A DNA stretch of 14,811 bases from an uncultured Clostridia bacterium (GTDB lineage: Bacteria; Bacillota_A; Clostridia; Christensenellales; Aristaeellaceae): the NCBI GenBank assembly GCA_947165745.1, contig CAMVBO010000013.1, forward strand, positions 1 through 14,811. Reading direction: 5' to 3'. Shown here one piece after another: positions 4,273 to 14,798 of the stretch; the stretch's first letter is position 1, and each line of letters starts with the position of its first letter. Made by a program: the position numbers and the translations under genes. The notes beneath the pieces were generated by a model. The model had not been told where the DNA came from. It searched no databases and was given only the letters and a program-made list of their open reading frames with translations.

Positions 4273-4822
4273 ATGAAACTACTGTGGCGGCTCAGCCGCG
4301 AAGCAAAGCGATACAAGGGCCTGTATCTCGCCGCCATCCTTGCCACGCTGGCGCTGGCTGACTGGGGTCAACCTGGCCGCGCCGAAGCTGCTGTCCGCGG
4401 TGACGGGCGTGGTGGAGGGTGGCGTGGACGAAGCGGGTCTGCGCAAAATCCTGACGCTGACGGCAGGGCTGGCTTTGCTTTACCTGCTCAGGGTGCTGTT
4501 CCGCTTCATGAGCAACTATCTGGCGCACCGGGCGGCATGGTATCTGGTGGGTGACCTGCGCACCCGCACCTACGACAAGCTGGAGCGGATGCACCTCGGC
4601 TTCTTCCACGACAAGCAGACCGGCGATTTGATGAGCCGGGTGGTCAACGACACGCGGGACTTCGAGTTGCTCTATGTCCACATCATCCCGGAGTCCGTCA
4701 CCAACTTCGTCACCTTCGCGGGCGTGCTGATCATGCTGATGACGATCAACTGGCGATTGGCGCTGATCACCTGCGCGCCCATCCCATTGATCCTCATCTC
4801 CGGCGTGATCTTCGCCAAAAGT
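4273..4822 (+). pseudogene. Truncated, frameshifted ABC exporter (N-terminal membrane domain only)
   Basis: The first 28 or so codons (MKLLWRLSREAKRYKGLYLA...) give the start of a type I ABC exporter. The frame then shifts around 4352-4362, within a GCGCTGGC-rich repeat, and continues in the +2 frame with LTGVNLAAPKLL. Loss of 2 bases from the repeat would explain it. The second part contains membrane helices and the typical coupling region (DKLERMHLGFFHDKQTGDLMSRVVNDT). Only about 180 residues of an expected 570-600 remain. The nucleotide-binding domain is absent. The coding sequence ends at FAKS, where the mobile element at 4823 begins, and the element's own TAG is the stop codon. No continuation is found beyond the element, so sequence has been lost there. 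The gene lies 7 bases after the VOC protein gene. Confidence 0.85.
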
Positions 4823-4918
4823 TAGAGTGTGTTTCTAAAGTCCGGGATGTGCAGTTTCGAGCGTATCAGGCTGCATTTCAAGGCGATTTTCCGAAGGCTT
4901 ACTGGCATCGAGCGCCCG

Positions 4919-4966
4919 GAAAACAGTCCAGCGGACTGTTTTCAGCGAGATGGGGCCGGCAGGCCC
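4919..4966 (+). repeat. Central two-hairpin cassette of the outer MITE
   Basis: GAAAACAGTCC-AGC-GGACTGTTTTC (4919-4943) is a perfect 11-bp stem with a 3-base loop, followed by GGGCC-GGCA-GGCCC (4953-4966). The same pair occurs inverted in the copy at 14570-14798, and it is missing from the inner copy. It may be structural or a transposase or host-factor recognition site; function is unknown. Confidence 0.7.
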
Positions 4967-5007
4967 GTGGATGCAAGTCGAGGAAAAGCAACACAGAAAT
5001 GCAGCCT

Positions 5008-5171
5008 TAGAGTGTGTTTCTAAATCCCAGGAGATGCAGTTTCAAGCGTAGTTGGCTGCATATCAAGGCGATTTTCCGCAGGCTTACTGGTTGCAAGTCA
5101 AGGAAAAGCAACGCAGAAATGCAGCCAAATCCGCTGAAAATGCGCTTCGGGGATTTTAGAAACAGACTCTA
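5008..5171 (+). mobile_element. Nested, internally deleted MITE-like copy
   Basis: This copy begins TA-GAGTGTGTTTCTAAA and ends TTTTAGAAACAGACTC-TA, inserted within the outer element with TA at both borders. It keeps the sub-terminal GCTGCAT and AAATGCAGC arms but lacks about 66 bases of the outer copy (4906-4971), including both central hairpins. The right terminal repeat has one mismatch (CAGACTC instead of CACACTC). It is a short derivative of the same family. Confidence 0.8.
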
Positions 5172-5276
5172 ATCGCCGAAAAAGCAGGTTCAGGATTTTA
5201 GAAACACACTCTAGTAGTATGCTATACTCATCTGACAAATGGGGTGCAGTTCATACGGCCCGCAGCACAGTCGTTC

Positions 5277-5305
5277 TTTACAAGAGCGTAAAAACAAGGT
5301 ATAAT
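5277..5305 (+). promoter_or_regulatory. Promoter of the formate dehydrogenase/cofactor operon
   Basis: TTTACA (5277-5282) and a perfect TATAAT (5300-5305) are separated by 17 bases. Transcription would start near 5312, with a leader of only about 23 bases before the first gene, too short for a riboswitch. The MITE right end is 63 bases upstream. A small palindrome AGTAT-GCT-ATACT at 5216-5228 lies between them. Confidence 0.7.
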
Positions 5306-5334
5306 TGCACTATCCAAAGGCATCGGAGGGGCGT

Positions 5335-5850
5335 ATGCATGTATTTTTGACAGGAGACAGGGGCATTGGCAAGAGCTGGGCGGCAGCGTCCGCCGCGGCA
5401 CTGCTGCAGCGTCCATGCCTGGGCTTTCGCACTGCGTTCTTGGCGAAAGATCATCGCGCGTCCGCCCTGTACCTGTTCCCCGCCGGCGCGGACTGCCCAT
5501 CGCCCGAGGCCCGAGTAGCGGCCGTCTGGGCGGATGGCCGGCTGACGGCAGTGGCGGGCGTGTTTGACAAATACGGCACCGCCCTGCTGCGGGAGGCCCG
5601 CAGGCATCCGGAAGCGCTGATCCTGATGGATGAGTGCGGGCACGTGGAGCGGGACGCGCTCGTCTTCCAGCGTGAGATCCTGGCCTGTCTGGACGGAGAA
5701 ACGCCGGTGCTGGGCGTGCTGCGCAAGGGCCAGCTCTGGCATGGCATGATCCGGGAGCATCCCAATGTGCGGGTGCTGGAGGTCACCGCGCAGAACCGGG
5801 GCCGGCTGCCGCAGCAAATCGCCGCGCTGATCAGAGGGTTACGGCCATGA
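5335..5850 (+). CDS. P-loop nucleoside-triphosphatase, THEP1-like, 171 aa
   Basis: A Walker A motif, GDRGIGKS, lies at residues 7-14 directly after the first strand (MHVFLT). The strand LILMDECGHVE at 95-105 carries the Walker B acid and the DECG signature typical of THEP1-type NTPases (PF03266). PVLGVLRK at 124-131 fits the following strand. Proteins of this group hydrolyse NTPs and are soluble; their cellular roles are poorly known. The ATG at 5335 is chosen because GGAGG stands 5 bases before it. A longer frame from TTG at 5305 begins inside the -10 box and cannot be transcribed whole. The stop overlaps the start of the next gene (ATGA). Position at the head of a molybdenum enzyme operon that has MobA but no MobB invites the idea of a MobB-like role, which is inference. 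Confidence 0.8.
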   Translation: MHVFLTGDRGIGKSWAAASAAALLQRPCLGFRTAFLAKDHRASALYLFPAGADCPSPEARVAAVWADGRLTAVAGVFDKYGTALLREARRHPEALILMDECGHVERDALVFQREILACLDGETPVLGVLRKGQLWHGMIREHPNVRVLEVTAQNRGRLPQQIAALIRGLRP

Positions 5851-6488
5851 GCGGGATCATGCGGGAGTCGCTGCTTTCCTGGGCCCTGAACGGCGCGCCC
5901 CAGGCGCCTTTGCTGTGCTCCGCGGGCGAGGAAGAAGCATTGCTGCTGGGCCACATGGTGGCCTCCGGACTGGTGGACGGCGCGGACAGGGTTCGCTCCG
6001 TCCGGCGCGAGGGCAAGGGATGGCAGGTACGGGCCGAGTTGTGCGCGCAGGCGTCCCTGCCCGCCCTGCTGCGGCTGGAGACGATGAAACCCCTGGAAGG
6101 CAGCTTTGTCGCGCCGTCCGAAGCGATCATCCGCTGTTGCGAACAAGTGATGGCGATGAAACGCGGCGCGGGGCTTCACACCGTTCTGCTCGGCATCGGA
6201 GAAAGGACGGTGCTTTGCCAGGACATCGGCCGACACAACGCGCTGGAAAAGGCCGTGGGCAGCGCTCTGCGCGAATCGCTCGACCTGAGCCGTGCCATTC
6301 TGGCCGCCTCCAGCCGGCTGTCCCTGGAGATGCTGGCCAAGGCCGCCTTTGCCGGCATTCCCGTCCTGGTCACTCAAAAACAGGTGGGCAGCCTGTGCGT
6401 GCCGCACGCACAACGCCTGAACATCGCCGTATGCCGCCTGGACGCGGCGCTTATCCCCCTCAGCCGCCCTGAGCGCGTGCGGGACTGA
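5847..6488 (+). CDS. fdhD: FdhD-like formate dehydrogenase accessory protein, 213 aa, no Cys-x-x-Cys
   Basis: FdhD is a sulfurtransferase that passes sulfur from a cysteine desulfurase to the molybdenum cofactor of formate dehydrogenase. The C-terminal half carries the family signature: GLHTVLL (109-115), QDIGRHNALEKAVG (125-138), a Ser-Arg-Leu-Ser-Glu-like segment (155-161), and GIPVLVT (170-176). The N-terminal half (NGAP...EEEALLLGHMVASGL) fits the family's first domain. It is short compared with the usual 250-280 residues. The loop between the halves that normally holds the catalytic Cys-x-x-Cys reads LETMKPLEGSFVAPSEA with no cysteine; the only nearby cysteines are the pair at 97-98. It may be a non-transferase variant or use other cysteines. 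ATGA overlap with the preceding gene indicates coupled translation. Confidence 0.82.
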   Translation: MSGIMRESLLSWALNGAPQAPLLCSAGEEEALLLGHMVASGLVDGADRVRSVRREGKGWQVRAELCAQASLPALLRLETMKPLEGSFVAPSEAIIRCCEQVMAMKRGAGLHTVLLGIGERTVLCQDIGRHNALEKAVGSALRESLDLSRAILAASSRLSLEMLAKAAFAGIPVLVTQKQVGSLCVPHAQRLNIAVCRLDAALIPLSRPERVRD

Positions 6489-6527: not shown

Positions 6528-7163
6528 ATGCAGAGGATCAAAACCCGGGATCTGGCCGTGATGGCCCTGGTCCTGGCGCTGGGCCTGTTTTCCAAGCGGA
6601 TCGTTTCGCCCGTGACCAACCTGCTCACCGAGTTCTTCCGCCTCCCCGGCGGAAGCGCGGCGGCGGGATTCTCGCTGGCGTTTCTGCTGATCGGCGGGGA
6701 GATGGTGTCGGTGCCCTTCGCGGGGGCGCTGATGGGCCTTGCCCAAGCGGGCCTGGCGCTGGCGCTGGGCATGTCGGGCTACCAGGGCGCGCTGGCGCTG
6801 ATCACCTATACCCTGCCCGGTCTGGTCCTGGATCTGGCGTCCCATCTGCCCCTGGAAGGCATGGCGGGCCGCGCCCTGGCGTGCGCATCGGCCTGTCTGA
6901 CCAGCGCGGCGCTGAGCAACATGCTCGTCTTTCATCTGCGCGGGCTGTCCCTTATCCTGTGGCTGTTGCTGGCGGCGCTGTCGGGGGTGGTCGGCGGATG
7001 GCTGGCCCATCTGGTGCTGAAAAGACTTGATAAACAAAACGACAGGAGAAACAGAAGCCATGAAGAAAAAAGCAATTTGGATCGCCGCAGTCGCGGTGCT
7101 CGTCGTCGCCGTCCTGGCCGTCGGCCTGATCGTGCGCCAGCGCCAGACGGCCCGCCAGGTTGA
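6528..7163 (+). CDS. ECF transporter S component-like membrane protein, 211 aa
   Basis: About five to six hydrophobic helices span residues 8-165. The arrangement starts with a short basic N-terminus (MQRIKTRDLAVMALVLALG) and includes LIGGEMVSVPFAGALMGLAQAGLA, typical of substrate-binding S components of energy-coupling factor transporters. These import vitamins or metals with shared EcfA/EcfT subunits encoded elsewhere. The substrate is not identifiable. The ATG at 6528 follows AAGGAG by 9 bases; an upstream in-frame ATG at 6489 would have no good site. The tail after residue 170 (LVLKRLDKQ) is Arg-rich low-complexity sequence that overlaps the next gene by 104 bases, and it looks like a read-through caused by loss of the original stop or a frameshift. 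Its place between FdhD-like and cofactor genes suggests a cofactor-related substrate. Confidence 0.75.
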   Translation: MQRIKTRDLAVMALVLALGLFSKRIVSPVTNLLTEFFRLPGGSAAAGFSLAFLLIGGEMVSVPFAGALMGLAQAGLALALGMSGYQGALALITYTLPGLVLDLASHLPLEGMAGRALACASACLTSAALSNMLVFHLRGLSLILWLLLAALSGVVGGWLAHLVLKRLDKQNDRRNRSHEEKSNLDRRSRGARRRRPGRRPDRAPAPDGPPG

Positions 7164-7557
7164 CGGCGCTGTTACGCTGAAGAACGGCGGGAAGACCGTT
7201 CAAATTCCCCTCGGGGAGCTGGACCAAATGGCCTTCAGCGGCGAGACGGTGAACGGCAAGGGTGAGCGCGCCACCCATGATTATCATGGCGTCCCCCTGA
7301 AGACCCTGCTGGAGGATCGGCAGGTCGACCTGGGCGCGGTGTCCGCCGTGACGGTGACCGCGGCAGACCAGTTCTCCGCCAACTATACCATCGACGAAAT
7401 CAACGAAGAGGGCAAGGTCTGGCTGGCCGTGCGGGTGGACGGCCAGAGCGTAGAAGGCGTCGACCCGGGAACGCCCGGCGCGCAGATGGTGGTCTTCGGC
7501 GATCCCAACAGCAAACGCAACGTGCGCTGCCTGACCGAGATCGAAACGAAACCCTGA
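7060..7557 (+). CDS. Membrane-anchored molybdopterin-oxidoreductase-fold protein, 165 aa
   Basis: Residues 5-25 form one hydrophobic helix after a Lys-rich start (MKKKAIW), acting as a membrane anchor or uncleaved signal with the rest outside the cytoplasm. The outer domain resembles the small beta-rich domain of the sulfite-oxidase type molybdopterin family (PF00174-like): DYHGVPLKTLLE (74-85), VTVTAADQFSANYTIDEI (97-114), VWLAVRVDG (120-128), and RCLTEIE (156-162). The conserved molybdenum-ligating cysteine of the full enzyme is not evident; Cys157 is the only cysteine. It probably binds something rather than catalyses, but this is inference. The ATG follows AGGAGA by 10 bases. It is flanked by the ECF component and the FDH flavoprotein, so an accessory or ligand-capturing role is possible. 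Confidence 0.7.
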   Translation: MKKKAIWIAAVAVLVVAVLAVGLIVRQRQTARQVDGAVTLKNGGKTVQIPLGELDQMAFSGETVNGKGERATHDYHGVPLKTLLEDRQVDLGAVSAVTVTAADQFSANYTIDEINEEGKVWLAVRVDGQSVEGVDPGTPGAQMVVFGDPNSKRNVRCLTEIETKP

Positions 7558-7588: not shown

Positions 7589-9436
7589 ATGAAAGCAGGT
7601 GTCGCCTTGAAACAATTGGCAAGACGCGGGAACATGAACGAGCGCATCGACGTCGTTCTGCAAAAGTTCCGCTCCCGAATGACCTCTTATCCGCCGGGCA
7701 TGTGCCCGCTGGTGCTGTACCGTTCGCTGCTGCAAATCTCCATGAACCAGACCTGTGGAAAGTGCGTGTCCTGCCGGGACGGACTGGTGGAGGCGGATCG
7801 ACTGCTCGGGGACATCCTGTCCGGCGACGGCGACGGGGACACCCTGGCGAAGATGGAGCGCCTGTGCCGCATGATCGCCCGCACGGCGGATTGCGCGGTG
7901 GGCGTGTCCGCCGCCAATCTGGTCCTGGACAGCCTGACCGAATTTGCCGACGAATATGAAAGCCACATCCACCATCATCGCTGCGTGGAGAACGTGACCC
8001 AGACCATCCCCTGCGTCACGCTGTGCCCCGCGCACGTGGACGTGCCGGGCTATGTGGCGCTGGTCCATGCCGGGGATTACGCCGGGGCGGTGAAGAAGAT
8101 CCGGGAGAAAAACCCCTTCCCCACGGCCTGCGCCATGGTGTGCGAGCATCCCTGTGAGCGCAAGTGCCGCCGCAGGATCATCGACGACGCCGTGAACATC
8201 CGGGGTCTGAAAAAGTATGCCGTGGACCAGGTCCGCGCGGACAAGGTCGACACCCCGCGGCGAAACGTCGGCACGGGCAAGCGCGTCGCCGTCATCGGCG
8301 GCGGTCCGTCCGGGCTGACCGCGGCCTATTTCCTTTCCCTGATGGGCCATCATGTGGACGTCTACGACGCGCACGAAAAGCTGGGCGGCATGCTGCGCTA
8401 CGGCATCCCTGAATATCGGCTGCCCAAGGATCGGCTGGACGAGGATATCCGGGCCATACTTTCCGTGGGCGGCATCGACACTCACCTGAATACGAAGGCC
8501 GGCGCGGACATTGCCTTTGACGCCATCCGCAGGGACCATGACGCCGTTTTCCTGGGTCTGGGCGCACAGCTGGGCAACCGCATGCCCGTGGACGGCGCGG
8601 ACGGGAAAAACGTGATCCCCGCGGCGGATTTTTTGCAGCGGGTGGCCAGCGACCACGCGCCGGACCTGACGGGAAAGCGCGTGGCGCTGATCGGCGGCGG
8701 CAACGTGGCCATGGACGCGGCCCGGACGGCGGTGCGCCTTAACGCCCGGTCCGTGCACGTCTTTACCCGCAAGCGGGACGACTACACCGCCCTGGGCACG
8801 GAAATCGAGGCCGCCATGCAGGAGGGCGTGCGCTTCCGCACCCTGCTCAGCTTCCTCAACATCGAACTGGACGACGAAGGCGCCGTGCGCGCCGTCTGGC
8901 TCCAGCCGGAAATCGTGGCCGAGTACGACAAATTCGGTTTCGTACAGACCGAACACTCCAGCAGCTATCCCTATCGCTTCCTGTGCGATTATTTGATCCT
9001 GGGTGTCGGGCAGCGGAGCGACCTGTCGGCGTTCACCGAGGCGGGCGTCCCCTCCGAGCGGGGGCGCGTCCGCGCGGACGTGACCTGCGAAGTCCAGGGA
9101 ATGTCCGGCGTGTTTTCCGGCGGCGACTGCGTCACCGGCCCCTCCACGGCGATCAACGCCATCGCGGCGGGACAGGTGGCAGCCTATAACATCGACGAGT
9201 ATCTGGGCTATCATCACAAGATCCTCAGCGACACGCCCCTTCCCGCGGCGGTGCCGAACCCCTGCATCCCCACGGGGCGCGCGGAGATCGAGGAAAAGGA
9301 CCCCTTTGAGCGGCGCGACAGCTTCGACTTCGTGGAGCTGTCCATGACCGCCGAAGAAGCGATGCGCGAATCCGGCCGGTGCCTTCGGTGCGATCACTAC
9401 GGCTGCGGCGCGATGACAGGAGGCAGGGGCGAATGA
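7589..9436 (+). CDS. NAD(P)H-linked FAD iron-sulfur protein of the formate dehydrogenase, 615 aa
   Basis: Three parts are visible. Residues about 35-120 resemble the C-terminal 4Fe-4S domain of NuoF, with CGKCVSC (56-62) and Cys102 as cluster ligands. Residues about 130-200 are the two-cluster domain of the glutamate synthase small subunit/DPD family (Cys132, 142, 146, 181, 185, 189, 193). Residues 231 onward are the two-nucleotide flavoprotein: an FAD site GGGPSG at 237-242, the GGMLRYGIPEYRLPK block, and an NAD(P) site GGGNVAMDAAR at 370-379. The C-terminus carries CLRCDHYGC, possibly another cluster. No FMN-binding NuoF core is present. It most likely moves electrons between the adjoining catalytic subunit and NAD(P)(H). 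The start is uncertain: ATG 7589, TTG 7607 and ATG 7634 all have weak binding sites. ATGA overlap joins it to the next gene. Confidence 0.87.
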   Translation: MKAGVALKQLARRGNMNERIDVVLQKFRSRMTSYPPGMCPLVLYRSLLQISMNQTCGKCVSCRDGLVEADRLLGDILSGDGDGDTLAKMERLCRMIARTADCAVGVSAANLVLDSLTEFADEYESHIHHHRCVENVTQTIPCVTLCPAHVDVPGYVALVHAGDYAGAVKKIREKNPFPTACAMVCEHPCERKCRRRIIDDAVNIRGLKKYAVDQVRADKVDTPRRNVGTGKRVAVIGGGPSGLTAAYFLSLMGHHVDVYDAHEKLGGMLRYGIPEYRLPKDRLDEDIRAILSVGGIDTHLNTKAGADIAFDAIRRDHDAVFLGLGAQLGNRMPVDGADGKNVIPAADFLQRVASDHAPDLTGKRVALIGGGNVAMDAARTAVRLNARSVHVFTRKRDDYTALGTEIEAAMQEGVRFRTLLSFLNIELDDEGAVRAVWLQPEIVAEYDKFGFVQTEHSSSYPYRFLCDYLILGVGQRSDLSAFTEAGVPSERGRVRADVTCEVQGMSGVFSGGDCVTGPSTAINAIAAGQVAAYNIDEYLGYHHKILSDTPLPAAVPNPCIPTGRAEIEEKDPFERRDSFDFVELSMTAEEAMRESGRCLRCDHYGCGAMTGGRGE

Positions 9437-12144
9437 TCACCATCACCATCAACCAAAGGCCCATCCAGGCGCCGGAAGGCCGGACGATCCTGCAAATCGC
9501 CCGGGACAACGGCATCTACATACCGACGCTGTGCTACCTGGAGGATGTGTCCGACATCGGCATGTGCCGCCTGTGCATGGTGGAGGCGGAGGGCTACGGC
9601 CAGCTCCTGCCCGCCTGCCGCACCGTGGCGGCGGACGGCATGGTCATTGTCACGGAAAGCGAGGCGCTGAAGGACTATCGCCGGGAGATGCTCAACCTGA
9701 TCCTGTCCAACCACACGCTGGACTGCATGAGCTGCGCGGCCAACGGCGGCTGCGAGCTGCAGGATCTGTGCAATCGCTTCGACGTCAAGCACGCCTCCTA
9801 CCGGGGCTCGCGCACCGAGATCGAGGGCAAGGCGCAGGTGCTGTCCGAAAACCCGTTCATCACCTACGATCCCGGCAAGTGCATCCACTGTCAGCGGTGC
9901 GTCAACGCCTGCCACGCCATCGCCTGTAACGGCGCGCTGGGCAACGGGCGCAGCGGCGTGTTCCACCTGGTGGACGCGCCCTTCGGCCAGGGCTATAAGC
10001 TGACAGCCTGTGAAAGCTGCGGCAACTGCGCCGCCGTCTGCCCCACGGGCGCGCTGCGGCTGAAGCAGGAGGAAAAATACCGGAACTGGGAGATCTCCAG
10101 GGTCCGCACGACCTGTCCCCACTGCGCCACAGGCTGCCAGTTCGACCTGCTGGTCAAGGACGGACGGATCGTCAACGTGGAGGCGGCGGACGGCCCCTCC
10201 AATCACAGGCGCCTGTGCGTCAAGGGCCGCTCCGGCAGCTATGACTTTGTCCATTCGCCCGACCGGCTGACCGACCCGCTGATCCTGGATCGCGCCACCG
10301 GCCAGTTCCGCAAGGCATCGTGGGATGAAGCCATCGCCTACACCGCCCGGCGATTGATGGAGATCAAGGCCAAATATGGCGGGGACGCCCTGGCCGGGTT
10401 CGCCTGCTCCCGCTCGCCCAACGAGGACATCTACATGGTGCAGAAGATGGTGCGCACCTGCTTCGGCACCAACAACACGGACAACTGCGCCCGCGTGTGC
10501 CACTCGGCCACGGTGGCCGGCCTGGCGAAGACGCTGGGCTCCGGCGCGATGACCAATCCCATCCGCGACATCACCCACGACGTGGACTGCATCCTGCTCA
10601 TCGGCTCGAACCCGGAGGAGGCCCACCCGGTGGTGGGCATGCAGATCCGCAGGGCGGTCTCGCGCGGCACGCGGCTGATCGTGGTGGACCCGCGGGAAAT
10701 CGGCCTGACGAAATACGCGGACATCCACCTGAAGATCCGGCCCGGTACCAACGTGGCCTTCGCCAACGGCATGATGCATGTGATGATCGAGGAAGATCTG
10801 ATCGACCGCGCCTATATCGAAAACCATGCTGAAAGCTTCGATGCGCTGAAGGCGACGGTTGAAAAGTACACCCCGAAATACGTGGGGGAAATCTGCCACA
10901 TCGACCCGGACAAGCTGGTGGAAGCGGCGCGCATGTACGCCACGGCGAAAAAGGCGCCGATCATCTACTGCCTGGGCGTCACGGAGCATTCCTCCGGCAC
11001 CGAGGGCGTGATGTGCGTGTCCGACATGGCGGTGCTGTGCGGGAAAATCGGAAAGAGCGGCTGCGGCGTCAACCCCCTGCGCGGCCAGAACAACGTGCAG
11101 GGCGCCTGCGACATGGGTGCTTCCCCCACCGACTTTCCCGGCTATCAGAAGGTGGACAACCCTGCGGTGCGCGAAAAGTTCGAGGCCAAATGGGGCGTGC
11201 GCCTGAACCCGACGCCCGGGCTCAAGGCCACAGACGTGTTCCCCGCCGCCATCGAGGGGAGGATCAAGGGCCTGTATATCTATGGCGAGGACCCCATGGT
11301 CACCGATCCGGACACTCAGCACATCGAAAGGGCGCTGGAAAGCCTGGAATTCCTGGTGGTTCAGGAGCTGTTTATGACCAAAACCGCCCGGTATGCCGAC
11401 GTCGTTTTGCCGGGCCGGAGCTACGCCGAAAAGGAGGGCACCTTCACCAACACCGAGCGTCGCGTACAGCGCGTGCGCAGGGCGGTGACCGTGCCGGGCA
11501 ACATGCGGCAGGACACGGATATCATCATCGACCTGATGAACGCCATGGGCTATCCCCAGGAGCGCCTCACATCGGCGCAGATCATGGATGAGATTGCCGA
11601 ACTGACGCCCAGCTTCCACGGCATCAGCCATGCCCGGCTGGACGCGGGCGAGAGCCTGCAATGGCCCTGCCCGGACGCGAACCACCCGGGCACGCCCATC
11701 ATGCACGCCGGAAAGCCCGCCCGGGGCCGGGCGCTGCTCTACGCCGTGGACTACAAGCCCTCCATGGAGCTGCCCGACGAGGAATACCCCTTCATGCTGA
11801 CCACCGGACGCATACTGTATCAGTACAACGCGGCGGCCATGACCGCCCGGGTGAAGGGCCTGAACGAACTGGCCGGAGAGGGCTTCATCGAGGTGAATTT
11901 CCGCGACGCCGAAAGGCTGGGCATCGCCAGGGGCGAGCGCGTGCGGGTGACCAGCCGGCGGGGAAGCATCACCGCCACGGCCCATGTGGGGCGCAAGGTG
12001 TCCCAGGGTGAAACCTGGATGCCCTTCCACTTTCCCGACTCCCCCGTGAACCGATTGACCAACGCGGCGCTGGATGAATTTGCCCGGATCCCCGAATATA
12101 AGGTCTGCGCCGTGAAGCTGGAGAAGATCCATGGAGACGGCTGA
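9433..12144 (+). CDS. fdhA: Formate dehydrogenase catalytic (alpha) subunit, cysteine type, 903 aa
   Basis: The enzyme interconverts formate and CO2 at a molybdenum or tungsten bis-dinucleotide centre. The NuoG-like N-terminus holds a 2Fe-2S site (Cys34, 45, 48, 62) and a His94-Cys98-Cys101-Cys107 cluster site. Two ferredoxin-type 4Fe-4S sites follow (Cys150-153-156-160 and Cys193-196-199-203). The molybdopterin domain begins with Cys228, 231, 235 and 262 and runs to the C-terminal dinucleotide-binding domain. The metal-binding residue is Cys356 (NCARVCHSAT, codon TGC), with the catalytic His357 next to it, so no selenocysteine is used. The ATG at 9433 is taken because AGGAGG (9418-9423) lies 9 bases before it and it overlaps the previous stop (ATGA). 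The end overlaps mobA by 14 bases. No signal peptide: a cytoplasmic enzyme. Confidence 0.95.
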   Translation: MITITINQRPIQAPEGRTILQIARDNGIYIPTLCYLEDVSDIGMCRLCMVEAEGYGQLLPACRTVAADGMVIVTESEALKDYRREMLNLILSNHTLDCMSCAANGGCELQDLCNRFDVKHASYRGSRTEIEGKAQVLSENPFITYDPGKCIHCQRCVNACHAIACNGALGNGRSGVFHLVDAPFGQGYKLTACESCGNCAAVCPTGALRLKQEEKYRNWEISRVRTTCPHCATGCQFDLLVKDGRIVNVEAADGPSNHRRLCVKGRSGSYDFVHSPDRLTDPLILDRATGQFRKASWDEAIAYTARRLMEIKAKYGGDALAGFACSRSPNEDIYMVQKMVRTCFGTNNTDNCARVCHSATVAGLAKTLGSGAMTNPIRDITHDVDCILLIGSNPEEAHPVVGMQIRRAVSRGTRLIVVDPREIGLTKYADIHLKIRPGTNVAFANGMMHVMIEEDLIDRAYIENHAESFDALKATVEKYTPKYVGEICHIDPDKLVEAARMYATAKKAPIIYCLGVTEHSSGTEGVMCVSDMAVLCGKIGKSGCGVNPLRGQNNVQGACDMGASPTDFPGYQKVDNPAVREKFEAKWGVRLNPTPGLKATDVFPAAIEGRIKGLYIYGEDPMVTDPDTQHIERALESLEFLVVQELFMTKTARYADVVLPGRSYAEKEGTFTNTERRVQRVRRAVTVPGNMRQDTDIIIDLMNAMGYPQERLTSAQIMDEIAELTPSFHGISHARLDAGESLQWPCPDANHPGTPIMHAGKPARGRALLYAVDYKPSMELPDEEYPFMLTTGRILYQYNAAAMTARVKGLNELAGEGFIEVNFRDAERLGIARGERVRVTSRRGSITATAHVGRKVSQGETWMPFHFPDSPVNRLTNAALDEFARIPEYKVCAVKLEKIHGDG

Positions 12145-12730
12145 TCGCGTCGCCGTCGGGATCCTCGCCGGCGGCCAGAGCCGCCGGATGGGGCGGGACA
12201 AGTCGCTGCTCCCCTTTGACGGCAGGACGGCCATCGGGATCATCGCGGAGGAGATGCGGGATTTCCCTGAAACGCTCATCTCCGCGGCGGAGCCGGGCAG
12301 GCTCGACGCCCTCGGCCTGCCCGTCTGCCGGGATGAACACAGGGGCATCGGCCCCATCGAGGGCATCCGGCGGCTCCTGGAGACGGCAAAGGCGGAATAC
12401 CTATTCGTCTGCGCGGTGGACATGGCCTTTATCTCAAGGGAGGCGGTGCGCGCCCTCGCCCGCCGGATCTGTCCGGAATATGACTGCTATGCGATCACCC
12501 GCGACGGCGTTCCCGAACCGATGTGCGCCATCTACTCCAAAAGGGTCCTACCGGTCATCGAGCGGCTGATTTCCCAGGGCAGGTATCGCCCGCGCGAGAT
12601 CTTCCGGGAATGCCCGACCCTGTATATCCCGCTGGAATCCTCCGGTTTGGGTCCACGAATCCTTATGAATATCAACACCCCGGAGGACTACGAGAAAGCG
12701 CTGCAGGCGTACAGATCCACCGACCTGTGA
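12131..12730 (+). CDS. mobA: Molybdenum cofactor guanylyltransferase MobA, 199 aa
   Basis: MobA joins GMP from GTP to molybdopterin, giving the guanine dinucleotide cofactor needed by formate dehydrogenase. The signature nucleotide loop LAGGQSRRMGRDK is complete at residues 12-24. GIGPIEGI at 72-79 and VCAVDMAF at 93-100, with the metal-binding Asp97, follow in the right order. NINTPEDYE near the C-terminus matches the conserved family end. Length is normal. The start overlaps the end of the catalytic subunit gene by 14 bases, with GGAGAAG ahead of it, indicating translational coupling. No clear terminator follows in 12731-12834. Confidence 0.92.
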   Translation: METADRVAVGILAGGQSRRMGRDKSLLPFDGRTAIGIIAEEMRDFPETLISAAEPGRLDALGLPVCRDEHRGIGPIEGIRRLLETAKAEYLFVCAVDMAFISREAVRALARRICPEYDCYAITRDGVPEPMCAIYSKRVLPVIERLISQGRYRPREIFRECPTLYIPLESSGLGPRILMNINTPEDYEKALQAYRSTDL

Positions 12731-14423: not shown

Positions 14424-14569
14424 TTTGATTTCCTCCTATAGTTAATCTCATCGTGACAGGCGTTCCCACCCGACAGGTCCGAATGCCGGATGAATGTCGC
14501 GTGGCGGCACAGGCTTTCATACGAGGTCGTGTCCGTCATACCAAAAACCTTGCGCAGACCGCGGCGCCT
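14424..14569. other. Upstream region of the membrane protein gene
   Basis: This 146-base gap holds the strong AGGAGG site at 14432-14437 and a weak minus-strand promoter candidate, but no gene I can support. The minus-strand frame from 14520 codes for MKACAATRHSSG and then runs out of register into the real gene. Confidence 0.4.
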
Positions 14570-14798
14570 TAGAGTGTGTTTCTAAATTCCACAAGATGCA
14601 TTTTCGGCGCCTTGAACTGCATTTCTGCGTTGGTTTCCCTTGACTTGCATCCACGGGCCTGCCGGCCCCATCTCGCTGAAAACAGTCCGCTGGACTGTTT
14701 TCCGGGCGCTCGATGCCACTAAGCCTGCGGAAAACCGCCTTGAAATGCAGCCCAATCCACTCGAAACTGCACATGTCTCATTTTAGAAACACACTCTA
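14570..14798 (-). mobile_element. Complete MITE-like element, inverted copy
   Basis: It is bounded by TA at 14570-14571 and 14797-14798, with terminal repeats GAGTGTGTTTCTAAA and TTTTAGAAACACACTC. Read in reverse it aligns along its length with the outer copy at 4823-5213. A block of about 75 bases around the central hairpins (14644-14719) is identical between the two. The 11-bp stem is at 14678-14702. At 229 bases and with no insertion in it, it is the best model of the intact element. Confidence 0.85.

Follow-up and report, generated by a model that had tools for sequence, protein, structure and literature searches.

The 14,811-nucleotide stretch analysed here (the window), positions 1 to 14,811 of contig CAMVBO010000013.1 (assembly GCA_947165745.1, from an uncultured Clostridia bacterium), encodes an energy-coupling factor (ECF) S component, hereafter S (6528 to about 7030-7060), followed by a single-helix protein, hereafter M (7060-7557), both on the forward strand. 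S and M probably supply the substrate specificity of an ECF importer, through which the molybdenum or tungsten cofactor (Moco or Tuco), or its molybdopterin or dephospho form, would be salvaged from outside the cell. The observed basis of this reading comprises the pairing of the two genes, the riboswitch linkage of their relatives, the predicted folds, the missing Moco-synthesis genes in the genomes searched and the presence of kinase and phosphodiesterase-family neighbours; from it we infer binding and transport by S and M, the direction of transport, the activities of the enzymes and the precise chemical form of the substrate. The location of S between a sulfurtransferase-family gene (fdhD) and the formate dehydrogenase (FDH) genes, adjoining M, was confirmed in the window. 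The initial annotation had proposed a capture-and-import pair for a pterin, for molybdate or tungstate or for another FDH-related compound; this is supported as a reading, and the list of candidates narrows to a pterin cofactor in view of the PruR-like fold of M, the loss of Moco genes and the enzymes of the sister operons.

M is predicted to fold like PruR, a pterin-binding protein, with a SUOX-type domain of about 130 residues preceded by an N-terminal helix (residues 2-34) that may be an anchor or a signal. A profile search of the PDB with M gave weak matches to PruR and to sulfite oxidases (E 0.25-0.3), and a search with the single sequence gave chance-level matches only. No cysteine is conserved across 36 aligned M sequences, and the description of M as a single-helix PF00174-like protein devoid of a metal-ligating cysteine therefore holds. 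M resembles periplasmic PruR (7KOM, 7KP2, 7KOS, 7RKB) in fold, domain size, lack of a metal-ligating cysteine and predicted extracytoplasmic place, but while PruR is described as working with the signalling enzyme DcpA in Proteobacteria (PMC13259868), M is tied to S in Bacillota, with S as its constant neighbour. The sulfite oxidase/MsrP family (PF00174) differs in that M lacks the conserved cysteine that serves as the Mo ligand and consists only of the core domain and a single helix.

The predicted structure of S displays the six-helix fold of S components. Its closest fold, from a second look with VIA, is that of YkoE (PDB 5EDL; PF09819), the S component of the YkoEDC transporter for thiamin or hydroxymethylpyrimidine (HMP), while Foldseek returned no match at E <= 0.001 and PDB sequence searches, single and profile, yielded chance-level matches only (thioesterase, neuropilin). 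PF09819 matches 14 of 38 S relatives at E <= 0.1, the window S itself being unmatched, and one distant relative is named thiamin/HMP. The contacts reported for thiamin in YkoE are Trp49 in helix 2, Glu77 in helix 3 and Gln95 in helix 4; in a comparison made by helix and not by residue alignment, the window S has no Trp in helix 42-59, no Glu in helix 65-79 (which contains Gln73) and no Gln in helix 87-104, with Gln86 just ahead of it. The S relatives further differ from YkoE in carrying a Moco instead of a thiamin pyrophosphate (TPP) riboswitch and in being paired with a PruR-like protein. The S frame of the window extends to 7163, inside M, and has one base fewer near 7034 than two close relatives (L001 and L002), in the first of which S ends at the ATGA of M; the difference may be an assembly error or a real change.

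The pairing of S and M is conserved. S was recovered at 16 loci in a scan of genome contigs, each from an uncultured member of the Bacillota and many from ruminant samples, and M directly follows S in the window and in all 16, with a four-base overlap in 12 (L009 counted with an ATG start). Within the order to which the genome of L001 (G001) belongs, S was found in nine of 297 genomes, G001 included, giving eight further loci, seven of which hold an M-like gene within the S operon (the exception is L072); of these seven, four (L073, L074, L075 and L079) exceed the PF00174 cut-off and three (L076, L077, with E 0.04, and L078) fall short of it. A class-level sample added 15 S loci from genomes with a match to PF00384, all with an M-like gene within the operon, which brings the order and class loci together to 22 of 23. 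PF00174 matches 14 of these 15 M-like proteins at E <= 0.1 (12 above the cut-off; L109 and L110 below), and the M of L097 was identified by BLAST to the window M alone (2e-13). The repeated co-occurrence across Clostridia that had been put forward as a check is thus observed, in the sense of M given S and not of S given M, since every locus was found via S. None of 73 pattern matches in viral contigs encodes an S relative. An apparent S-M fusion in L008 was rejected, as the 353-residue frame begins in a reading frame other than that of S, and S ends where M starts. In L007 (11227-13236) and L012 (11125-13218) M is directly followed by an ABC exporter (PF00664); these proteins, of 669 and 697 residues, had initially been grouped with EcfA.

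RF01055, the Moco/Tuco riboswitch, scores above the gathering score in 30 of 39 related loci; in 25 of them it is upstream of S, or of the operon that contains S, and in line. It lies immediately before S in ten of the 16 scan loci (L003-L006, L008, L009 in part and L013-L016) and, in seven of the eight order loci, ahead of S or of the first operon gene, the contig ending at this point in L078. Thirteen of the 15 class loci carry it. By position, it precedes the S operon in line in eight (L097, L101, L102, L104, L106, L107, L109 and L110) and is upstream in an ambiguous arrangement in L103, while in L098, L099, L100 and L111 it precedes a different gene of the cluster; none was found in L105 and L108, whose contigs start 4.4 and 0.4 kb before S. 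None of the matches in the window and the 39 loci is to the TPP riboswitch (RF00059), and the assignment to an unrelated vitamin through a riboswitch-linked homologue, which could have overturned the initial annotation, did not occur. Alignments of eight of the riboswitches show a P3 stem in L004, L013, L016 and L097 and none in L072, L073, L101 and L106; RNAs with P3 have been linked to Moco and those that lack it to Tuco (Regulski et al., 2008; PMC2408646).

The genomes that carry window-type S are poor in genes for Moco synthesis. Fifteen of the 16 scan genomes lack MoaA and MoaC, and 13 show none of MoaA, MoaC, MoaE and MoeA. MoaA exceeds its cut-off in a single genome, with lower matches to the radical-SAM model in all 16; MoaC is likewise found in one, MoaE in two (35.6 and 33.7 bits) and MoeA_N in two, that of G009 being a short fragment. 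G009 has this fragment as its only trace of the four enzymes, and G008 has MoaE only. Because PF00384 is rare in the order (six of 297 genomes), the class was chosen as control, in which 71 of 391 genomes match PF00384, one of them (G429) below the cut-off. Among the 70 such genomes besides G001, MoaC occurs in 60 and S in 15, and 47 of the 55 genomes devoid of S possess MoaC. The comparison of one in 16 with 47 in 55 gives p = 7e-9 in a Fisher test that ignores kinship, assembly gaps and the differing sampling of the two sets. MoaC was found in one of 17 clade I (window-type) carriers tested, G421 included, and in none of five order S carriers tested (of the eight other than G001; G223, G243 and G305 were left out of this search), while it occurs in three of five additional genomes of the order that match PF00384 but lack S. 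Those clade I carriers that have a Mo/W enzyme but not the enzymes that build or metallate molybdopterin would need the ready cofactor. In many of them an S component and a pterin-fold protein stand under the cofactor's own riboswitch, which, together with the loss of synthesis, points to Moco/Tuco or its pterin as the imported compound.

A tree of 48 S proteins, from which L079 and L111 were excluded because their S matches are in pieces, separates window-type S (clade I; 18 rows, 100/99) from operon-type S (clade II). No dedicated ECF module was seen adjoining S in clade I, and EcfT is present in 15 of the 16 scan genomes. In contrast, 14 of the 15 class loci have EcfA, EcfA' and EcfT in line with S, the exception, L097, belonging to clade I, and EcfT is found in seven of the eight order loci, the contig of L078 ending before it. 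The class loci further contain a nucleotide-pyrophosphatase-like PF01663 protein (12 of 15), MobB (12) and a kinase (13), identified by BLAST to clade II members with some weak kinase matches, and the order loci, by sequence clusters, have them in seven, seven and six of eight cases; the Pfam names of these neighbours come from the members scanned. The RIO/APH-like kinase retains DxNxxNF and DFE motifs in the ten members checked, and several of the pyrophosphatase-like proteins have a signal or a lipobox at the N-terminus. Both proteins would be expected if the salvaged compound bears a nucleotide and is phosphorylated. AOR, an enzyme that uses tungsten or molybdenum, occurs in 14 of 15 class, seven of eight order and six of 16 scan genomes. 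Within the scan loci, the kinase is placed between M and FdhD in L009 and fused to MobA in L013 and L016, while MobA is fused to NTPase_1 in L011 and NTPase_1 relatives are found in L007, L010, L011 and L012; in L004 and L008, MobB has FdhD on one side and the riboswitch on the other. Since NTPase_1 and the kinase alike adjoin or fuse with MobA or FdhD, NTPase_1 is proposed as a stand-in for the salvage kinase in the window clade, judging from gene arrangement.

In the proposed mechanism, M, tethered to the membrane through its single helix and facing outwards, would bind the metal-pterin in a pocket of the PruR/sulfite-oxidase type, reversibly because the metal-ligating cysteine is absent, and hand the cofactor to S. 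S would dock on an EcfAA'T module encoded elsewhere in clade I, or on its own module in clade II, which would drive uptake. In clade II, the extracytoplasmic pyrophosphatase-like protein would first cut dinucleotide forms of the cofactor (the guanine and cytosine dinucleotides, MGD and MCD), and the cytoplasmic kinase would restore the phosphate, a role that NTPase_1 may take in the window clade. MobA and MobB would then make MGD, FdhD would help to load FDH, and in many relatives the riboswitch would shut the system when the cofactor is plentiful.

Several observations weigh against this reading. PruR, the solved family sharing the fold without the cysteine, is described as likely to be unable to hold Moco (PMC13259868), its pocket being too small, so that M could bind just a smaller pterin. 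Cysteines do occur within the matched or expected PF00174 stretch of some larger clade II lipoproteins (L073 1597-2733, L074 8837-9385, L079 5332-7350 and L106 2604-3710); these could be metal-ligating enzymes or binders of another kind, unlike M. No RF01055 was found in the window at E <= 1, nor at L001, L002, L007, L010, L011 and L012. The absence of Moa and Moe genes was counted in assemblies of unstated completeness, and G003 carries MoaA, MoaC, MoeA and MoaE on one contig; contamination was considered for the latter and set aside, the GC content of 0.52-0.58 against 0.50 at the S locus being too small a difference to call. MoaC is present in 13 of the 15 S carriers of the class sample, which implies that S does not serve auxotrophs alone, and in one of these (G352) MoaC and MoaA, preceded by a riboswitch of their own, lie in line after the S operon. 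Finally, for three genomes on which PF00384 was not run (G005, G007 and G012), no Mo/W enzyme was identified.

Of the alternatives, the best placed is an importer of a simpler pterin or of a Moco precursor such as cyclic pyranopterin monophosphate instead of the metal-bearing cofactor, which we consider unlikely and which partly overlaps with Moco/Tuco salvage. PruR is reported to bind small reduced pterins (PMC13259868), and the kinase of the sister operons suggests a dephosphorylated substrate; a precursor, however, could not be finished by the known enzymes, as MoaE and MoeA are also missing in 13 of the 16 window-type genomes.

Import of the molybdate or tungstate oxyanion by S and M, with Moco synthesis left to enzymes already known or still unknown, appears improbable. 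It would suit the MoaC-positive carriers, and most carriers may need another source of Mo: PF13531 matched all 16 scan genomes and is too broad to settle the presence of ModA, strong ModA-type matches being confined to G003 and G010 (E 3e-46 and 3e-44; TupA was not searched). The 13 genomes in which none of the four synthesis enzymes was found would, however, be unable to use molybdate, the predicted fold of M is of the pterin-binding type, and no role would be left for the pyrophosphatase-like protein and the kinase. The known systems for these oxyanions, ModABC, TupABC and WtpABC, are binding-protein ABC importers and not of the ECF type. A Moco riboswitch by itself fits them too, as modABC operons are described as being at times under the same control (PMC2408646).

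Slightly less probable still is the opposite direction, in which the ECF complex would export Moco/Tuco or a pterin to extracytoplasmic PF00174 proteins. Several of these proteins in clade II show signal or S-layer features, some with a cysteine inside the PF00174 stretch, one class locus (L098) also holds ApbE, NusG_II and Hpre_diP_synt_I genes, and the 13 MoaC-positive carriers of the class sample can make Moco. The FDH of the window, however, is by family presumably a cytoplasmic NAD(P)-linked enzyme, the 13 scan genomes devoid of the four enzymes would have nothing to export, no cysteine lies in the PF00174 stretch of either giant protein checked (L099 and L101), and the kinase and MobB are better suited to import. 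A precedent for ECF export exists in Listeria, where EetB and FmnA likewise place ECF subunits in extracytoplasmic cofactor traffic, differing in that the substrate is flavin, the direction is outward and the system is tied to flavinylation by FmnB (PMC9973259).

That S is YkoE proper, a thiamin/HMP component beside FDH by accident, is highly improbable: the fold, the PF09819 matches and the name of one distant member favour it, against a Moco riboswitch in place of a TPP one and a Trp and a Glu of the thiamin site that are not seen in the corresponding S helices.

Salvage of Moco/Tuco through S and M has its nearest logical parallel in QrtT with QueK and QueL (preQ1/queuosine salvage, preQ1 riboswitch), which likewise joins riboswitch, S component and salvage enzymes for a different substrate, with no M-like receptor mentioned in the passage cited (PMC11477304). 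How pterins cross the bacterial membrane is unknown according to a 2026 pterin review (PMC13259868), and uptake of molybdopterin by outer-membrane proteins has been suggested in one paper (PMC12282271). No bacterial Moco importer, of the ECF type or otherwise, was found in the literature searched, which was mostly open access and did not extend to bioRxiv preprints, and no system composed of S and M turned up in it, as the initial annotation had supposed. If S and M do import the cofactor, Moco/Tuco would join the nutrients traded among microbes, a substrate would be assigned to a whole clade of S components, and bacteria seemingly unable to make the cofactor, such as FDH-bearing genomes without MoaA or MoeA, could be understood to run the enzymes that need it. 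The receptor, the pyrophosphatase and the kinase would become directly testable, and a genetic handle for delivering an unstable cofactor to cells would be gained. On a broader view, whose chances we rate as about even, ready-made Moco/Tuco is a shared 'vitamin' of animal guts: some Clostridia would have given up its synthesis and would live on intact Moco, imported through an ECF transporter devoted to it with the help of a surface receptor that holds Moco, trimmed by a pyrophosphatase outside and re-phosphorylated by a dedicated kinase inside.

The remaining genes of the window operon lie on the same strand. An NTPase_1 P-loop protein (5305-5847; PF03266, 2.5e-18) precedes FdhD, S and M. The FdhD family protein (5847-6488; PF02634, 2.7e-29) is a short form of 213 residues in which no CxxC, the sulfur-transfer motif of FdhD, was seen, only RCC and scattered cysteines; on its sequence it may be a carrier instead of a sulfurtransferase. 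Downstream of M follow the FDH electron-transfer subunit (7589-9436), which joins the C-terminal Fe-S region of NuoF to a GltD-like flavoprotein (PF10589, PF14691 and PF07992; NF009410 above cut-off), the FDH alpha subunit, a cofactor-requiring Mo/W enzyme (9433-12144; TIGR01591, 818.7 bits, above cut-off), and a MobA-like nucleotidyltransferase that would convert molybdopterin to MGD (12131-12730; PF12804, 9.3e-33), whose top NCBIfam matches are MobA models, below their cut-offs. In L013-L016, S and M are preceded by a different molybdopterin oxidoreductase (about 708 residues; PF00384 checked in L013 and L016), accompanied by an Fe-S protein of 169-171 residues and a flavoprotein.

Large PF00174-domain proteins stand beside clade II operons in L099 (665-5203), L101 (2196-5612) and L098 (10796-12181), with S-layer domains in L099 and L098; in L099 and L101 the large protein is preceded by a Moco/Tuco riboswitch. 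In L098 (3993-7632; G352), the ApbE, NusG_II and Hpre_diP_synt_I genes, then MoaC and MoaA, lie behind the S operon, a cluster that links flavinylation and Moco genes. FecCD-type permease and Peripla_BP_2 genes, perhaps encoding a tungstate or molybdate ABC importer, share the clusters of L106 (3725-8394, with DUF364/DUF4213), L104 (4280-5281) and L105 (677-3613, by layout only). Near both ends of the operon region of the window lies an inverted repeat of about 180 bases (4822-5172 and 14569-14798), whose copies are 91% identical over 182 nucleotides and 81% over 85; it truncates a frame (4273-4825) that by eye resembles the start of an ABC exporter.
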